Shown here piece by piece: positions 14,518 to 27,553 of a stretch of DNA of 39,069 bases. The position numbers and the translations under genes were made by a program. The notes beneath the pieces were generated by a model. It worked only from the letters and a program-made list of their open reading frames with translations. It was not told the origin of the DNA and made no database searches. Source of the DNA: Aeromicrobium sp. (GTDB taxonomy: Bacteria; Actinomycetota; Actinomycetes; Propionibacteriales; Nocardioidaceae); the NCBI GenBank assembly GCA_025965115.1, contig JAOPXO010000050.1, positions 1-39,069 of the forward strand, read 5' to 3'. How positions within the stretch are numbered: the stretch's first letter is position 1; every line of letters begins with the position of its first letter.

Positions 14518-17500
14518 ATGCCAAAACTCCCACCCGTTCGTCTCCGCCATGCCACCACGCGCGCCCGTCGCTCGGTTGCCCGAAGGTCCGTCGTGGCCAT
14601 CCTGGCTCTCGTGGCCAGTGGCCTGGTCGTCGGTCTGGCGCCCTCAGCGTCCGCCACGCAGGCGTCCGGTGACGATGTCGCGGCGTGGTCGAACGGCTGG
14701 TCGTGGACCTACGCGACGGTGTTCCACTATGTCGACTCGACGAGTGACACCGACGCGTCGATCAACGAGAACGTCACGTACACCGTCGCGGGTTCGACCA
14801 CGTTTGGTGGCCAGGACGCCTACCAGCTGAACATCACTGGCAACATCACCGGCGGCAGCGGTCACACGGTCATCGAGGGCACCGGCACCGTCAACCTGTC
14901 GGGCTTCTCCGGCTCGGTGAGCGGTACGCGAATCGTCCGCAAGTCCGACCTGGCGCTCCTGCAGGAGAACCAGGCCCAGACACTCGCCGGCTCGGCGAAA
15001 TACAGCATCTTCACGATCGGCGTCAACGCCAACATCAACCTCCAGCTCACGCCGTCTCCCGGCTGGCGGAGCCGTGACTTCCCGCTCAACGCCGGAGACT
15101 CCTGGCAGAACAACGAGTCGCTCGCCTACACGGGCGGGTTCAGCTACACGAGCTCACTGGCCAACGGCTCGTCCCCCTTCGACGGCGCATTCGACTTCGA
15201 TGGACCGTCAACCGTCGCCAACCAGACCATCTCGGTGGGTGCCGGATCGTTGAGTACTAAGGCGATCAGCGCCCAGTCGAACACTCCCGACGGTCTCGCC
15301 GTCGACAACATCTGGTGGTCGGCTGACCGCAAGAACGACGCCCAGGAGCACCTGCAGCTGCCGCTCGACTCGGCGACGCTGACGATCGACCGCAGCCTCA
15401 GCTCGTCGTCCACCCCGGCGCCGAGCACCTCGCTCACCGCGACTGCCACCCCGTCGCTGACCTGCGCCGGTGGCCAGGTCACCGTGGCCGGCAAGCTCGG
15501 CAACGCGAGTGGCGTACCGGTGTCGATCTATCTCGACAAGTCCCAGATCAGCGCCGGCCAGCAGGTCACGGCGAACACAGTCACCGGCACGAACGGCGCC
15601 TACGCGGCTACCCTGACCGCTCCCGCCGAGAGCGACGGCCTGGCCAAGAATGGTTCGCGCGGCAACTGGGGCATCTACGTCTCGGGCGGCGGCGTCAACG
15701 CGGCCACGACTCTCGTCGTCACCCCCAAGGACTGCACAACCCTCGAGTACACCGGGGCAACCACGGCACCTCGCGCGACCAACGCGTCCGTGAGCGCAAA
15801 GCTGACGAACCTGGCGGGCAGCTCGGTGAACGGGCGCACGGTCACCTTCAGTCTCGATGGCGGCGCATCGGTGGACGCCACCACGAACAGCAGCGGGATC
15901 GCCACGGCAAATCTGCCGGTCGGCGACACAGCGCGCACCACCACCGTCCGCGCCCACTACGCCGGGTCGGCGACATCGGAGGCCGCTGACACCTCGACCG
16001 CGTTCGTCGTCGGCAAGGTCGGCACCGTCACGTCGGTCTCGCCCTCAGTCCCGAGCGTGGAGATCAATGACCCGGTGACGTTCACCGCAGACGTGACGAC
16101 CACCCAGTCCGGCGTGGGCACACCCGACGGGTCTGTCCAATTCACGATCGATGGTACGAACTTCGGCGCCGCAGTGTCGGTCGCGAGCGGCTCGGCGACG
16201 AGTGCGGCATTCTCGACCAGCAGCATTGGCAACCACACCGTCCAGGCGATCTACAGCGGCAGTGCCGGCTTCAGCTCGAGCACGTCGACGGACTCGACGT
16301 TCGCGGTGACGCCGTCACGCGCGCCGACCACGACAACTGCATCGGCCGCGCCGTCATCGAGCGTCTTCGGACAGTCGGTGACCCTGTCGGCGACGGTCAC
16401 GCCGAATGGCGGCGGAGCCACTCCGACCGGCAGCGTGACCTTCAAGCGTGGCGCCACCGTGATCGGCTCGGCCGACCTCGACGGTGACGGCAAGGTCACC
16501 CTCGCGACCGACGCGCTCCCCGTGGGCACGATCGCGGTCGTGGCCACGTACTCCGGTGACGACACGTACCGGAGCAGTGCCTCGAGCCCACAATCGGTCG
16601 TGGTCTCCAAGGCGGCCGTGAGCGTCGATCTGCAGTCCTCGAAGTCGCCGACCGTCACCGGTGAGGGCGTTGACTTCACCGCTTCGGTCAGCCCGGTCGC
16701 ACCTGGCGCCGGCTTGCCCAGCGGCAGCGTCCAGCTCCAGGTGGACGGCGCCGACGTGGGCGCGCCAGTGGCCCTGACCGGTGGCGTCGCGACATTCGAT
16801 GCCGTGACCTCGCTGCACGCCGGCGGTCACACGGTCAAGGCGGTTTATAGCGGTTCCTCGAGCTTCGAAGGCGACACCGACTCGATCTCCCAGGACGTGA
16901 ACAAGGCAGACACGACCACCACGGCGATCACCTCGCCGGAGGTCTCCAACGAGAACTCACCGTTCACCATCACGGCGACGGTCGTGGCCAATGCACCCGG
17001 CTCGGGCACACCGACCGGCAATGTGACCTTCTCGGCGGACGGTTCTGACATCGGGGCGTCCTCATTGGGTACCGACGGTCAGGCGTCCATCTCGGTCGAC
17101 AATCTGCCGCCCGGTGACCATGCGATCACGGTCAGCTACGTCGGCAGTTCCGACTACGGCGACAGCGCGAGCGAAAGCGTGAACCACTCGGTCATCGAGG
17201 GCGCAGCCGTCGTGCCGACGAGCCTGGACCTCAGCTCCTCGGAGAACCCCACCACGTACGGTCGGCTGATCTCGTTCAGTGCACAGGTGAATGCCGAGAA
17301 CGGCAGCACGCCGGCAGGGACTGTCCAGTTCTCCGTCGACGGCACCAACATCGGTGACCCGGTCACGGTCGGCGGTGACGGGATTGCGACGAGCGCGCTG
17401 CTGGCGGCCCCGGAACCCGGCGATCACACGGTGATCGCCGCATTCCAGGCCGATGCCGGATATGCCGGTAGTGGCGCGATCATCACCCAGACAGTGACCG

Positions 17501-18396
17501 ACGCAGGGGTCGTACTGGACCTCGGCTCGTCGGACGCGAACAGCGACTACGGCCAGTCCGTGCACTTCACGACCCATGTGGCCTCAGCGCAGGCCGGCAC
17601 CGCGACACCGACCGGATTCGTCCAGTTCCGTGTCGATGGCGCCGATCTCGGTGACGCGGTCGAGGTTCACGACGGCGCCGCCGTCAGCCCGGCTGTCTCG
17701 GATCTGGCTCCGGGCGACCACCAGGTCACCGCGGTCTACTCCGGCGATGCGCACTTCGTGTCGGACCAGACGACGCTGACCCAGAAGGTCGCCAAGATCG
17801 GGACCACCACGAGCCTCGTAGTCTCACCGACCACGAGCATGTACGGCGATCCGCTCGACCTGACCGCGACCGTCGCCCCGAGCCAGAACGGGCTCAGTGC
17901 GCCGACCGGATCGGTCGACTTCATGGACGGCAGCACCACGCTGGCCACCGTGCCGCTCGCGGCGAGCGGAGGCAATGGCACGGCGCACGTGGTGCTCCAT
18001 GATCTCGGGGCCGGCGCGCATTCGATCAAGGCGGTCTATGCAGGTACGGCGAACTTCGCGGGCAGCAACTCGGCGTTGAAGGCGATCAGCATCGCGAAGC
18101 GAGCGACGTCCGTCAAAGCCGAACCGGCAGTCGTGAAGGTGCTCCCGCTCGGTCTGCCCCTCGGCCGCCTGCAGGTCAAGGTCAGCTCATCGCTCGGCCC
18201 GCTGGTCGGCGTGCCAGTCACGTTCACGATCGGGTCGAAGACGGTGGGGACGTCGACGACTGACGTCAATGGAGTCGCCAGCGTGAACGCCTCCAGTCAG
18301 CTGGTGCAGCTGATTCTGGCCGGCGGCTACACGGCGACCTTCAACGGCACTTCCAACTTCGAGGGCTCGTCGGCCCACGGCGCGATCCTCCAATGA
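14518..18396 (+). CDS. Giant secreted bacterial Ig-like repeat protein 1
   Basis: 1292 aa. A basic n-region and hydrophobic core (RRSVVAILALVASGLVVGL) with an ASA cleavage site near residue 43 form a Sec signal peptide. Residues ~45-300 are a unique beta-rich domain (WSWTYATVFHYVD ... FPLNAGDSWQNN ... IWWSADRKN) that I do not recognise. Two Ig-like modules follow (~300-500), the second Big_1-like (NGRTVTFSLDGGASVDATTN). Seven Big_3_5-type modules of about 100 aa run from ~500 to 1196, each with the pattern GQxVxFTATV - PTGxVxFxxDG - L.xGxHxVxAxYSGxxxF. A divergent Ig-like cap ends in HGAILQ. There is no sortase motif or C-terminal membrane helix, so it is released or held non-covalently. Likely a surface, adhesion or matrix protein; ligand unknown. 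Confidence 0.88.
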   Translation: MPKLPPVRLRHATTRARRSVARRSVVAILALVASGLVVGLAPSASATQASGDDVAAWSNGWSWTYATVFHYVDSTSDTDASINENVTYTVAGSTTFGGQDAYQLNITGNITGGSGHTVIEGTGTVNLSGFSGSVSGTRIVRKSDLALLQENQAQTLAGSAKYSIFTIGVNANINLQLTPSPGWRSRDFPLNAGDSWQNNESLAYTGGFSYTSSLANGSSPFDGAFDFDGPSTVANQTISVGAGSLSTKAISAQSNTPDGLAVDNIWWSADRKNDAQEHLQLPLDSATLTIDRSLSSSSTPAPSTSLTATATPSLTCAGGQVTVAGKLGNASGVPVSIYLDKSQISAGQQVTANTVTGTNGAYAATLTAPAESDGLAKNGSRGNWGIYVSGGGVNAATTLVVTPKDCTTLEYTGATTAPRATNASVSAKLTNLAGSSVNGRTVTFSLDGGASVDATTNSSGIATANLPVGDTARTTTVRAHYAGSATSEAADTSTAFVVGKVGTVTSVSPSVPSVEINDPVTFTADVTTTQSGVGTPDGSVQFTIDGTNFGAAVSVASGSATSAAFSTSSIGNHTVQAIYSGSAGFSSSTSTDSTFAVTPSRAPTTTTASAAPSSSVFGQSVTLSATVTPNGGGATPTGSVTFKRGATVIGSADLDGDGKVTLATDALPVGTIAVVATYSGDDTYRSSASSPQSVVVSKAAVSVDLQSSKSPTVTGEGVDFTASVSPVAPGAGLPSGSVQLQVDGADVGAPVALTGGVATFDAVTSLHAGGHTVKAVYSGSSSFEGDTDSISQDVNKADTTTTAITSPEVSNENSPFTITATVVANAPGSGTPTGNVTFSADGSDIGASSLGTDGQASISVDNLPPGDHAITVSYVGSSDYGDSASESVNHSVIEGAAVVPTSLDLSSSENPTTYGRLISFSAQVNAENGSTPAGTVQFSVDGTNIGDPVTVGGDGIATSALLAAPEPGDHTVIAAFQADAGYAGSGAIITQTVTDAGVVLDLGSSDANSDYGQSVHFTTHVASAQAGTATPTGFVQFRVDGADLGDAVEVHDGAAVSPAVSDLAPGDHQVTAVYSGDAHFVSDQTTLTQKVAKIGTTTSLVVSPTTSMYGDPLDLTATVAPSQNGLSAPTGSVDFMDGSTTLATVPLAASGGNGTAHVVLHDLGAGAHSIKAVYAGTANFAGSNSALKAISIAKRATSVKAEPAVVKVLPLGLPLGRLQVKVSSSLGPLVGVPVTFTIGSKTVGTSTTDVNGVASVNASSQLVQLILAGGYTATFNGTSNFEGSSAHGAILQ
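16018..18105 (+). repeat. Seven tandem Ig-like modules (~300-bp period) in protein 1
   Basis: Protein-level repeats with period 97-100 residues. Nucleotide identity between modules is modest, so the array is old rather than freshly duplicated. The best conserved core is the YSG(D/S) strand near each module end. Confidence 0.8.
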
Positions 18397-18422
18397 TGTT
18401 CTCCCGAGAAGGAAGTACCACC

Positions 18423-21400
18423 GTGCGCAGACTGATCATTGTCCTCACTGCCCTCATCACGGCGCTCGGACTCACCCTGGTGTTCGCCGAGACTGCCAAC
18501 GCGAACGTGACTGCGCCGGCAAGTGGCGCGATCCTCACCGGGAACACCACCCTCTCCGAGTCAGGTGGGTATGACGACTCGACGATCAACCACTGCACAC
18601 TGACGAGCGGCAGTGGCTCCACGACTCTCCAGCTGATCAACTCCGGTGGGACCGTGGTCTTCAGCCAGCACTGGGACGGCGAGGGAGCGCGAACCACCGA
18701 CACGATCGACACGCACAACTATCCGAACGGCAGCTACACCGTCCGCGGCACCATCGGGATCATGAAGAACAGCGGATTCCTGGGCCTCGGGTGCTCGACA
18801 ACCACGGTCATATCGAACCAACCGGTGACGATCAGGAACATCAGCTCGATCGCGTACTCAGGGGCCACTTCCGGTGCGGCGACGACCTCGGCCACGGCCA
18901 CGGCCACGCTGACCGACCCGAACAAGTCGCCGGCAGGGATCAACGGAAAGACCGTCACCTTCGCCCTGTCTGGCGGTACTTCGGTGACTGGCACCACCAA
19001 CTCGAGCGGTGTCGCGACGGCGGTCCTACCGATTTCGGGACCACCGCGCAGCGCAACCATCACCGCGAGCTTCGCCGGCGACACGTTCTTCGTCGCCTCC
19101 TCGACACCCACCGCGTTCACCGTGACGAAGCAGGCGTCGAAGACGACCGTGGATTCGCCACCTGATGTCGTGCACGGTCAGGCGACGCACTTCACGGCAC
19201 ACCTCACCGCAGCCGAGGGAACCGGCACGCCGAACACCGGCACGGTGCAGTTCACCGTGGATGGCTCGAACTTCGGCGCACCCGTTGCCATCTCGAGCGG
19301 CAGTGCGACGAGCACGTCGACGTCCACGTTGAGCACCGGCGACCACACCGTCGGTGCGGTCTACAGCGGTGACGCGAGCTTCCTCGGCAGCACCGCGACG
19401 ACAACCACGCAGCACGTTGCCAAGGCCCAGACCACGACGTCGCTCGTGCAGGACATCAACCCGACGACTCATGGCCAGACGGTGACGTTCACCGCGACCG
19501 TCGCCGTTGTCGCGCCCGGAGTGGGCGGTCCCGGCGGCGCTGTGCAGTTCACGATCGACGGCAACCCGGTCGGTACCGCGGTGTCGATGACCGGCGATCA
19601 CGCGACGCTGCAGACGTCTTCATTGCATGCCGGCAACCACGACGTTGTGGCGACCTACAACGGCAATGGCGACTTCGCCTCGAGCGACTCCGCGACGATC
19701 GTCCACGGTGTCGACCAGTCGCAGACCCACGTCAGCCTCACGTCATCCGACGCCAGCGCGGTGTCCGGCCAGCCACTGACATTCACTGCCCACGTGTCAC
19801 CGACCGGCAATGGCGCGGGCGACCCGAGCGGGACCGTGACATTCTTTGCCGGTGGCGAGCAGATCGGCTCCCCGGTCGCCGTCGTGGACGGCTCGGCGAC
19901 TTCGAGCACGACCAGCCTCGACGCCGGCACCCACGAGATCACCGCCACCTACAGCGGTGACGATGACTTCGCCGGCTCCTCGACGTCGATCGACCAGGCA
20001 GTCGCCGCGGCCGCGACCACGACGACGGTCAGCTCCTCGCCCAACCCGTCGGTGTTCGGTCAGTCGGTCTCGGTCCACGCCGAGGTCACCCCGGTGAGCC
20101 CGGCCACCGGACACCCCGTCGGAACCATCAAGTTCAATGTCGACGATGGCGCGAACGTCATCTACGTCGACCTCACGGACGGCGCCGCCGATTCGACGCT
20201 CAACGGCCTTGCCGTCGGCGACCACACGATCAAGGCGACCTATCTGAGCGGTGACACCAACTTCGTCACCAGCACGTCCGCACCGCGAACCCAGACCGTC
20301 AACAAGGCGGCCACGGAGACCACCGTGGCGAGCTCGGCACCGACATCGGTGTTCGGTCAGCCGGTCACCTTCACCGCGACGGTCTCACCTGTCGCGCCGG
20401 GTGCCGGATCGCCCGCCGGGACGATCACGTTCAAGGACGGTTCGCAGGTTCTGGGGACCGCGCCGGTGAGCTCCGCAACTGACGAGCAGGCCTCGATCCA
20501 GGTGTCGAACCTGTCCGTGGCACAGCACGCGATCGTGGCGACGTACGACGGCGACGGCTCCTTCCAGGGCAGCAATGGATCCGTCGCGCAGAAGGTCGAG
20601 AGGGCACACACGTCCACGCTTGTCACCTCGTCGGCTAACCCGGCGAAGTCTGGCCAGGCGATCACCTTCACGGCCAACGTTTCTCCCGTCGCTCCGGGCG
20701 CCGGTGATCCGCTGGGAACCGTGACATTCACGATCAACGGCGCTCAGCTTGGCAACGCGGTGATGGTGGCCAACGGCCAGGCGACGAGCTCGGCCTTCGC
20801 GACGCTGTCGCCCGGGACCTACCAGGTCAAGGCGACGTACAGCGGTGACGGACACTTCGTGGGAAGCAACGGCGGCTTCGACCAGGGCGCGGGACTGGAT
20901 GTCGTCAAGGCGGCGACCACGATGACGTTGGGCTCCTCGGCCACTCCGGCGGACTACGGCGCGCCGGTGACGTTCACGTCGACGGTTGCCGCGGTCGCCC
21001 CGGCGACCGGCCGACCTTCTGGAGTGGTGCAGTTCTGGGAGGGTGCCAAGCTGCTGGGGGCAAGCAACCTTGCTGCCGCATCTGCTGCAAACACCTCCGC
21101 GGCGGACTTCGTGACCTCGACGCTGGCTCCAGGACCTCACGCGATACGTGCGGTGTATGTCGGCAACTTCAACTTCGACGGCCAGACATCAACCACGTCG
21201 CAGGACATCGGTCAGGCATCAACCGTCACCGGAATCTCTTTGACGCCGGCATCCTCGACGTTCGGTGATGACGTCACGTTCACCTCGACGGTCACCGGCA
21301 CGCCGGGTGCTCCGGGATCGCCGTCAGGCACGGTCACGTTCCGCGAGGGGTCAACGGTGCTGGGAGTGGCACCGTTGAGCACTGTGGACGGCAGCCGACA

Positions 21401-21839
21401 GGCATCCGTGGTGGTCTCTGGCCTGCACGGTGGCGATCACGCTGTCACCGCGACGTACTCCGGCGACACCTCGTTCGCACACAGCGCGTCGGCCGAATAC
21501 GTCCACCATGTCGATCGGGCAGCCAGCACGGTCGAGGCCGCGAAGCTGATAACGATCAACGGCGATGGCGTCGACGCAAAGATCGGTGTCGTCAAGGCGA
21601 CCGTCACCGGACTCGATGGAGGTCCGCTCGCCGGCGAACCAGTGGTCTTCACGACCATCCGTGAGGGTGACCACCTCGTGCTGCCGGTGTGTCAGGCAGT
21701 GACGAACGACCACGGAGTTGCCACCTGCACCTCGGAGATCAAGGAGGTCGTCCGGGTGTCCGTCCTGGAGGGATACGACGCGACGTTCTTGGGCAACGCC
21801 GACTACCTGCCCGATGCCGACCACGGAGCCCAGTTCTGA
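18423..21839 (+). CDS. Giant secreted bacterial Ig-like repeat protein 2
   Basis: 1138 aa from the GTG at 18423, chosen because GAAGGAAG (18406-18413) is well placed as Shine-Dalgarno and the product then begins with a clean signal peptide (RRLIIVLTALITALGLTLVF, ANA cleavage site). An ATG at 18393 overlapping the previous stop would add ten residues. Layout: an N-terminal Ig-like domain with two Cys (~30-145), a Big_1-like module (NGKTVTFALSGGTSVTGTTN), eight Big_3_5-type modules (~240-1034) and a divergent C-terminal cap ending in HGAQF. It lies 26 nt after protein 1, and the two share architecture, so they are ancient tandem paralogues, co-expressed and exported. No sortase signal or anchor. 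Adhesion or matrix role inferred only. Confidence 0.88.
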   Translation: MRRLIIVLTALITALGLTLVFAETANANVTAPASGAILTGNTTLSESGGYDDSTINHCTLTSGSGSTTLQLINSGGTVVFSQHWDGEGARTTDTIDTHNYPNGSYTVRGTIGIMKNSGFLGLGCSTTTVISNQPVTIRNISSIAYSGATSGAATTSATATATLTDPNKSPAGINGKTVTFALSGGTSVTGTTNSSGVATAVLPISGPPRSATITASFAGDTFFVASSTPTAFTVTKQASKTTVDSPPDVVHGQATHFTAHLTAAEGTGTPNTGTVQFTVDGSNFGAPVAISSGSATSTSTSTLSTGDHTVGAVYSGDASFLGSTATTTTQHVAKAQTTTSLVQDINPTTHGQTVTFTATVAVVAPGVGGPGGAVQFTIDGNPVGTAVSMTGDHATLQTSSLHAGNHDVVATYNGNGDFASSDSATIVHGVDQSQTHVSLTSSDASAVSGQPLTFTAHVSPTGNGAGDPSGTVTFFAGGEQIGSPVAVVDGSATSSTTSLDAGTHEITATYSGDDDFAGSSTSIDQAVAAAATTTTVSSSPNPSVFGQSVSVHAEVTPVSPATGHPVGTIKFNVDDGANVIYVDLTDGAADSTLNGLAVGDHTIKATYLSGDTNFVTSTSAPRTQTVNKAATETTVASSAPTSVFGQPVTFTATVSPVAPGAGSPAGTITFKDGSQVLGTAPVSSATDEQASIQVSNLSVAQHAIVATYDGDGSFQGSNGSVAQKVERAHTSTLVTSSANPAKSGQAITFTANVSPVAPGAGDPLGTVTFTINGAQLGNAVMVANGQATSSAFATLSPGTYQVKATYSGDGHFVGSNGGFDQGAGLDVVKAATTMTLGSSATPADYGAPVTFTSTVAAVAPATGRPSGVVQFWEGAKLLGASNLAAASAANTSAADFVTSTLAPGPHAIRAVYVGNFNFDGQTSTTSQDIGQASTVTGISLTPASSTFGDDVTFTSTVTGTPGAPGSPSGTVTFREGSTVLGVAPLSTVDGSRQASVVVSGLHGGDHAVTATYSGDTSFAHSASAEYVHHVDRAASTVEAAKLITINGDGVDAKIGVVKATVTGLDGGPLAGEPVVFTTIREGDHLVLPVCQAVTNDHGVATCTSEIKEVVRVSVLEGYDATFLGNADYLPDADHGAQF
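19140..21524 (+). repeat. Eight tandem Ig-like modules (~300-bp period) in protein 2
   Basis: Modules share GQxVTFTATVSPVAPGAG and ATYSGD cores with those of protein 1; the string VSPVAPGAG recurs in modules of both proteins, evidence for common ancestry or exchange between the genes. Confidence 0.8.
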
Positions 21840-26317: not shown

Positions 26318-27553
26318 ATGGGTGCAGTACTTGCAGGCTCGCACCTCCGGCGCGCCGCGGTGATCCTGTCCGCCGCGACCATGATTCTCGCGACGACCGG
26401 CACGGCCGCACTGGCGAGCGAGCCGACGCCTCTTCAACGGCTGGCGGCGTCAATCCTGGCCACGGCACAGCCGGGGCAACCCCTGCGAGTTGTCGTCACC
26501 ACCCGCACCACCGCGGCTCCACAGATCGTGGGCACCACCGCGGCATCGCGCTCACAGGCGCTCAAGCTCATCACCGCCGGGTTGTCGAAGAAGTCGACCG
26601 TCGGCGTCGATATCGCCCACACCGTACGCGCAACGGCCTCGACTTCGAATGACACCTACCGGTCCAAGCAATGGGCACTGACCCGCTTCCATGCCGAGTC
26701 GGTGTGGAAGAAGTCGACCGGTAGCGGGGTCGTGGTCGCAGTTGTCGACACCGGCGTCAGCGCGAGCCATCCCGACCTGAAGGGTCGTGTGCTCAGCGGC
26801 ACGGACCTGGTGGCCCCGGGCACCTCGGCCAACGATGAGAACGGACACGGCACCCATGTCGCGGGCATCATCGCAGCCGTCGCGGGCAACAAGCGCGGTA
26901 TCGCCGGGCTCGCCAACAATGCGCGGATCCTGCCGGTCCGGGTGCTGGACTCCAAGGGATCCGGCTCGTCGGACGATGTGGCCAACGGCATCATCTGGGC
27001 GGTCAAGCACGGTGCCGATGTCATCAACCTCTCGCTCGGCTCGACGCAGACCGACACGGCCGAACAGGCCGCGGTCGCCTACGCCGTCTCCAAGAACGTC
27101 GTCGTCGCAGCGGCAGCCGGCAATGACGGGTGCCGCGCAGGGCTGCTGGGCCTTGGCCGCACACGACCGAGCTATCCCGCCGCCTACCCGAGCGTGTTGG
27201 GTGTCGGAGCAATCTCCTCAGACGGCAGCCTGGCGTCGTACTCCGACTGCGGGTCGTGGGTAGACGTCGTCGCTCCCGGCAACGGCATCCTGTCGACCAT
27301 GATCAACAAGCCCAGCTCAGACCTGGGTTGCTCTGCCGGGAGCGGTTACTGCACCCTCTCCGGCACCTCGATGGCGACGCCGTATGCATCCGCCGCAGCC
27401 GCGCTCGAGATCGCCAAGCTCGGCAAGGGCTGGAAGCAGAGCACCGTACGAAGTCGCCTCCAGTCCTCGGCTGACAACCTCGGGCCGTCCGGCCGTGACG
27501 ACAACTCCGGCTATGGCGTCATCGATCCAGCTCGTCTCCTGGCGTCGAACTAG
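26318..27553 (+). CDS. Secreted subtilisin-like serine protease (S8 family)
   Basis: 411-aa extracellular endopeptidase. Signal peptide about 1-33 (RRAAVILSAATMILATTGTA, ALA cleavage), then a propeptide (about 35-115), then the S8 domain. Catalytic triad: Asp144 (VAVVDTGVSASHPDL), His177 (NGHGTHVAGI) and Ser351 (GTSMATPYASAAAAL), with oxyanion Asn269 (AAAAGND). Four Cys in the catalytic domain (271, 311, 338, 345) may form disulfides. It has no C-terminal membrane helix, so it is not a mycosin of type VII secretion. A GAAAGG Shine-Dalgarno precedes the ATG. Its stop overlaps the convergent MFS gene by 4 nt. It could process neighbouring surface proteins, but that is unproven. Confidence 0.95.
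   Translation: MGAVLAGSHLRRAAVILSAATMILATTGTAALASEPTPLQRLAASILATAQPGQPLRVVVTTRTTAAPQIVGTTAASRSQALKLITAGLSKKSTVGVDIAHTVRATASTSNDTYRSKQWALTRFHAESVWKKSTGSGVVVAVVDTGVSASHPDLKGRVLSGTDLVAPGTSANDENGHGTHVAGIIAAVAGNKRGIAGLANNARILPVRVLDSKGSGSSDDVANGIIWAVKHGADVINLSLGSTQTDTAEQAAVAYAVSKNVVVAAAAGNDGCRAGLLGLGRTRPSYPAAYPSVLGVGAISSDGSLASYSDCGSWVDVVAPGNGILSTMINKPSSDLGCSAGSGYCTLSGTSMATPYASAAAALEIAKLGKGWKQSTVRSRLQSSADNLGPSGRDDNSGYGVIDPARLLASN

Follow-up and report, generated by a model that had tools for sequence, protein, structure and literature searches.

Fibrillar adhesins comprise an adhesion region, a stalk and an anchor, as outlined in the excerpted text of PMC9210967, and the surface proteins with immunoglobulin (Ig)-like stalks covered there and in the excerpted text of PMC9704523 are anchored and often of changeable length; for Rib domains, repeat number is linked to rod length (PMC6936399, likewise in excerpt). 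Here, we analyzed a window of 39,069 nucleotides (nt), positions 1 to 39,069 of contig JAOPXO010000050.1 from an Aeromicrobium sp. of the family Nocardioidaceae (assembly GCA_025965115.1; 3.03 Mb, 88% complete, 293 contigs), which carries two neighboring genes for secreted Ig-repeat proteins, gene 1 (14518..18396, + strand, stop included; 1292 amino acids, aa) and gene 2 (18423..21839, + strand; 1138 aa). We propose, with a probability of roughly 0.45, that the two genes form an operon and that their products are sister extracellular rods acting as one system in attachment or as a surface structure. A preliminary description of this region had reported two exported Ig-repeat proteins encoded 26 nt apart, and both frames are indeed intact and begin with export signals, so that the frameshift it had named as a ground for abandoning its account is absent from the window; its word “giant” is generous for proteins of about 1,300 and 1,100 aa.

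The two genes were found only together. In a sample of 341 Nocardioidaceae-type genomes from 26 genera, some of them incomplete, a three-row profile of the gene-1 N-terminal module matched 35 genomes in 3 genera, and a profile of the gene-2 N-terminal module recovered the same 35 genomes at 115.9 bits or more, the next best match scoring 69.5 bits. This is the outcome of the survey of related genomes that had been suggested for the pair. At all 33 loci that we could read (the window, L002, L003 and L033–L062; those in G103 and G108 are cut by contig ends), the genes are adjacent and lie in the same order and on the same strand. Among named organisms, gene 1 has relatives in a Marmoricola metagenome-assembled genome (L002; 65% identical across the 360 N-terminal aa) and in Nocardioides sp. 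J54 (L003; 50%). Searches of an open literature library returned nothing joining Nocardioides with fibrillar adhesins, and the papers found on Nocardioides and Ig-like domains do not, by their titles, concern these proteins. In the overlapping order, class and phylum samples (391, 394 and 296 genomes), full-length matches to the gene-1 N-terminal module, comprising N1 and the adjoining Ig-like module, were confined to the family of the window, the remaining matches scoring below 26 bits, mainly over the Ig part. A single query with the window across 58 genomes, 37 of them of its own genus, matched its own genome alone, and the gene-1 profile added one further genome of that genus (G069); thus, the pair is rare in the genus from which it was described.

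The surroundings of the pair vary. The gene prfB lies within the stretch read at 19 of the 33 loci, on the upstream side at 18 and downstream in L048; TetR and ligA accompany the pair at eight; and at six, including the window, none of these genes is present. The neighbors in the window (photolyase, DtxR, DUF1295 and CMAS genes) occur in none of the other 32 stretches, and no third gene common to all 33 loci was seen within the stretches read. Because the pair thus occupies differing chromosomal sites, it is the pair itself that constitutes the conserved unit.

The lengths of both products are nearly constant. Among the 32 intact pairs (L052, in which the gene-1 frame stops after 891 aa, was left out), the mature gene-1 product measures 1246 aa (standard deviation 7.8, range 1230–1271) and that of gene 2 measures 1104 aa (standard deviation 8.0, range 1094–1121), at pairwise identities of 47–99.8% and 48–99.7%, respectively. 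Counted with a profile of our own, the Big_3_5-type repeats number 7–9 in gene 1 and 8–9 in gene 2, a spread that we attribute to borderline matches because the lengths hardly differ.

The domains, too, are colinear. In the window, gene 1 opens with a signal peptide (14518..14655) recognizable by its Arg-rich n-region, hydrophobic core and ASA site, followed by an N-terminal head of about 250 aa, N1 (14656..15420), an Ig-like module with a conserved cysteine (Cys) pair, C316 and C406 (15421..15735), the Invasin_D3-like Ig domain A_D3 (15736..16029), seven Big_3_5 Ig domains, A1–A7 (16030..18099), and a C-terminal Ig-like domain, A_C (18100..18393). Gene 2, also on the + strand, encodes an Ig-like head of about 120 aa with a Cys pair, N2 (18498..18854), the Invasin_D3-like domain B_D3 (18855..19148), eight Big_3_5 Ig domains, B1–B8 (19149..21521), and a C-terminal Big_1-like domain with a Cys pair, B_C (21522..21836). 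The seven and eight Ig modules of the preliminary description correspond to A1–A7 and B1–B8, each of which passes the Pfam curated cut-off, making both counts exact and well above what chance would give; the Big_3_5 model (PF16640; cut-off 35.5 bits) matches gene 1 at E = 2e-110 (362 bits) and gene 2 at E = 8e-137 (446.6 bits). To these, we add further Ig-like modules, namely the Cys-pair module, A_D3 and the divergent A_C in gene 1, all below the cut-off, and B_D3 and the divergent B_C in gene 2, likewise below it.

In between-locus comparisons covering 15 of the 33 loci, a repeat found its own positional counterpart as the best match in 3123 of 3150 tests, and a three-locus comparison that included the end domains gave 113 of 114. 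Different repeats of the window share a mean identity of 40%, and Tandem Repeats Finder detected no arrays in 14518–21839; the repeats are old and diverged and would offer little basis for recombination that alters their number. Averaged over 15 loci, A_D3 and B_D3, A1 and B1, A3 and B3, and A_C and B_C are reciprocal best matches between the two proteins; A7 has its best match in B8 without being the best match of B8, and within gene 2 the pairs B2/B4 and B5/B8 match reciprocally. This pattern fits duplication of one gene followed by divergence, and on the strength of this domain comparison we regard the two genes as encoding paralogous rods with unrelated N-termini, which bears out the earlier impression of a shared plan behind different N-terminal domains. 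Exactly four Cys residues are present in 30 of the 32 gene-1 products and in all 32 gene-2 products, arranged in both proteins as one pair near the N-terminus and one in the C-terminal Ig domain, where they would be expected to form disulfides. The A_C pair is present in 30 of 32 homologs; the window and L039, a relative from the same genus, lack it.

Judging from codon substitutions, both genes are under purifying selection: the ratio of nonsynonymous to synonymous substitution (dN/dS, NG86) is about 0.18–0.35 in eight diverged homologous comparisons (0.34 and 0.35 when the window is compared with L039), and a ninth, near-identical comparison yields dN of 0.001 and dS of 0.006–0.010. The divergence of gene 1 correlates with that of gene 2 (r = 0.93, 32 pairs); at the 18 loci with prfB, r is 0.87, and the partial correlation given prfB is 0.85. 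The best-conserved domains of the pair are B2, B5 and B6, with mean identities of 0.70, 0.71 and 0.67 versus 0.48–0.62 for the other repeats, and these mid-rod domains of gene 2 are a possible contact face.

At all 33 loci, the mature region of both products is preceded by a hydrophobic segment and an A-x-A-like site, a call made by a simple rule and not by a signal-peptide predictor, and the proteins are acidic, with isoelectric points of 4.1–4.9 in the 32 pairs. No membrane segment was found in the intact pairs (highest 19-aa hydropathy 1.84), no Cys occupies the cleavage site as a lipobox would require in the loci read, and the only sortase-type motif, LPSTG in the gene-1 tail of L054, is followed by no hydrophobic stretch; a Pfam scan of the window proteins recognized no wall-binding domain. 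The claim of export with neither a sortase signal nor a membrane anchor accordingly extends from the window to the whole intact set, and in place of the cytoplasmic location that would have counted against it, the sequences carry signals that point to secretion.

Compared with the described systems, the pair resembles fibrillar adhesins and fibrillar adhesin-like proteins, as the excerpt of PMC9210967 presents them, in being long and secreted, with an unassigned N-terminal module on a stalk of repeated domains. The repeated stalk domains are present (7 + 8 Big_3_5), presumably forming a rod. Unlike in fibrillar adhesins, no anchor and no recognized adhesive domain were found in the pair (N1 has no convincing Pfam family and N2 is weakly Big_7-like, in 8 of 17 members), which comes as two paralogs together and is of fixed length among the homologs read. 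With the plan of a fibrillar adhesin minus the anchor, and with an unrecognized head, the pair may work like one but is not classed as one. Periscope Proteins, as far as the excerpt of PMC9704523 describes them, share with it a separate N-terminal module and a tandem series of folded domains that should give a rod; however, the near-identical repeats and C-terminal wall tether of those proteins are missing here, and the length of the pair is nearly constant across three genera, in 32 pairs from different genomes. PF16640, which recognizes 15 domains of the pair, names the bead only, and the other Big_3_5 proteins that we read at 10 loci have N-termini differing from those of the pair. The likeness to invasin and intimin, whose Big_1 and Invasin_D3 models match the first and last Ig modules below threshold, is at the domain level alone, as no beta-barrel or LysM model was among the Pfam hits. 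The near-constant length and bead order over three genera, together with the failure to see the two genes apart in any of the 341 family genomes searched, suggest that length and pairing both belong to the function.

We envisage that the two genes are transcribed as an operon and that general secretory-type signals direct the export of both products. Each rod would carry its own head, N1 or N2, on about ten Ig domains, with the conserved C-terminal Ig domain taking the place of an anchor. An Ig bead is about 4 nm long, which would give about 40 nm per rod, a rule-of-thumb figure and not a computed one. The rods would bind each other, laterally or tip to tip, or have a target in common; noncovalent means would keep them on the cell surface or within the matrix, where their two heads would serve in attachment or in structuring the surface. 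The earlier suggestion that one protein may bind the other gains strength from the co-occurrence in 35 of 35 genomes and the adjacency at 33 of 33 loci, which do not prove it. A more specific version, which we consider rather unlikely in its entirety, is an obligate two-chain fibre of set length, in effect a molecular ruler restricted to one actinobacterial family so far, in which the rods touch through the conserved mid-rod domains of gene 2, are stapled by Cys pairs towards their ends, are held non-covalently and bear two heads, one of them of undescribed fold. If the proposal of one system holds, the locus would offer a small, testable two-protein system for asking by what means Gram-positive cells could retain fibres that have no anchor on their surface.

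Several observations weigh against the two rods acting as one system. No gene-1 match was found in 306 of the 341 genomes, incomplete ones among them, and in L052 (5998–13624, in a single-contig genome) gene 1 breaks off at about 891 aa and the frame of gene 2 overruns its usual end, reflecting either loss and decay or assembly errors. Big_3_5 domains are common (27–57 matches per genome in 10 genomes), and these genomes encode further Big_3_5 proteins, some of which also have a constant repeat number: in a small and mixed control, five homologs keep 2 repeats each, a near-identical pair keeps 4, and one related group from three genomes has 5, 5 and 4. The linkage and the correlated divergence would also be expected from co-inheritance, prfB being too conserved for a strict control. 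To these are added the lack of an anchor or of a known adhesive or wall-binding domain, and the poor quality of the structural models described below. The paralogy of the genes and their unrelated heads favor the possible, if doubtful, alternative that these are two independent anchorless proteins akin to fibrillar adhesins, tandem duplicates that are merely co-transcribed and reach separate targets with no contact. The missing anchor would not be odd in that case, given that most fibrillar adhesin-like proteins predicted in Actinobacteria have no predicted localization, according to the excerpt of PMC9210967. Independent adhesins, however, should at times be lost or duplicated singly, and the two genes were not seen apart in any of the 35 genomes that have them, despite several chromosomal sites.

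The heads bear on another explanation, namely that the pair is a secreted binding or enzyme scaffold, in which N1 binds a ligand or is catalytic, the Ig strings are spacers and attachment is not the purpose. N1 is large, and its mean pairwise identity of 0.61, as high as that of the stalk, is unlike the fast-changing tip expected of an adhesin; its low-confidence model, too, predicts long antiparallel strands. Nonetheless, N1 matches no convincing Pfam enzyme or ligand-binding family, and we hold this explanation to be distinctly improbable. Descent from a mobile element or from a phage surface or tail decoration seems hardly credible. Ig-like domains do occur in phage proteins, and the patchy distribution and differing chromosomal sites would suit such an origin, but the gene-1 N-terminal module had no match in 72,556 plasmid records, 50,697 phage records or a scan of viral contigs, the prfB neighborhood is common to 19 of 33 loci, and the loci share no third gene.

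Structure prediction of each protein, proposed earlier as a check, yielded models too poor to decide the matter. AlphaFold2, run with three-row alignments, gave a mean predicted local distance difference test score (pLDDT) of 59 for the N-terminal part of gene 1 and 45 for that of gene 2, and the best Foldseek template-modeling (TM) scores were near 0.2. The VIA-align rows cover model residues 253–456, which barely include N1 and correspond to a pair of Ig-like modules in gene 1; they match stacks of Ig-type domains in tandem, among them the macroglobulin domains of complement C3 and the adhesin repeats of 6xi3, a generic likeness that, for the Cys-pair module, runs from model residue 255 on. 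PDB sequence searches returned no convincing relative, the best being 7c7u, a biofilm-associated surface protein, at E = 0.04 to N2. The best Pfam match in the N1 scan, Gmad2 (9e-5, 3 of 14 members), comes without a position and could fall in the adjoining Ig-like module. The motifs of N1 may resemble those of DUF3108/TapB-type domains; the DUF3108_like model PF21347 matched none of 148 genomes and none of the control genomes, and is uninformative either way.

A mechanical rule places the second open reading frame at 18393–21839, with an ATG at 18393 that overlaps the stop of the first, and at 25 of the 33 loci gene 2 has a possible in-frame start with a 4-nt overlap of the gene-1 stop. The GTG at 18423 is the likely start in the window, being preceded by a Shine–Dalgarno-like GAAGGA (18408..18413, + strand, read by eye) and coinciding with the beginning of the signal peptide; the gap of 26 nt and the length of 1138 aa follow from this choice. 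No match to a sigma-70-type promoter was found, and terminator-like sites numbered 1 versus 2.8 expected. A candidate conserved upstream motif was rejected, as the best 9-mer with one free position occurred at 6 of 15 loci versus at most 5 in three shuffles. At the eight loci with the ligA neighborhood (L002, L055 and L057–L062), a divergent gene adjoining the pair, named TetR-family-like by eye, is a possible regulator there only.

Directly after the pair, L003 carries a smaller Ig-type frame of 400 aa (17365–18567), the C-terminal domain of which resembles A_C; it was rejected as a conserved third member, since its matches at other loci begin at gene 1. The window also encodes a subtilase-family (Peptidase_S8) protein (26318–27550), some 4.5 kb downstream from the pair. 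The 13 second-tier gene-2-like matches (45.7–69.5 bits), below which 14 weaker ones scored 27.3 bits or less, were also considered as a wider paired family and set aside, as reading all 13 loci (L071–L083) revealed no partner and no more than one Big_3_5-type domain per protein. These loci carry single secreted-type genes, with open frames of 1208–1307 aa and an N2-type Ig module, and their C-termini share, by eye, the pattern GTG...C...DAxCxV.

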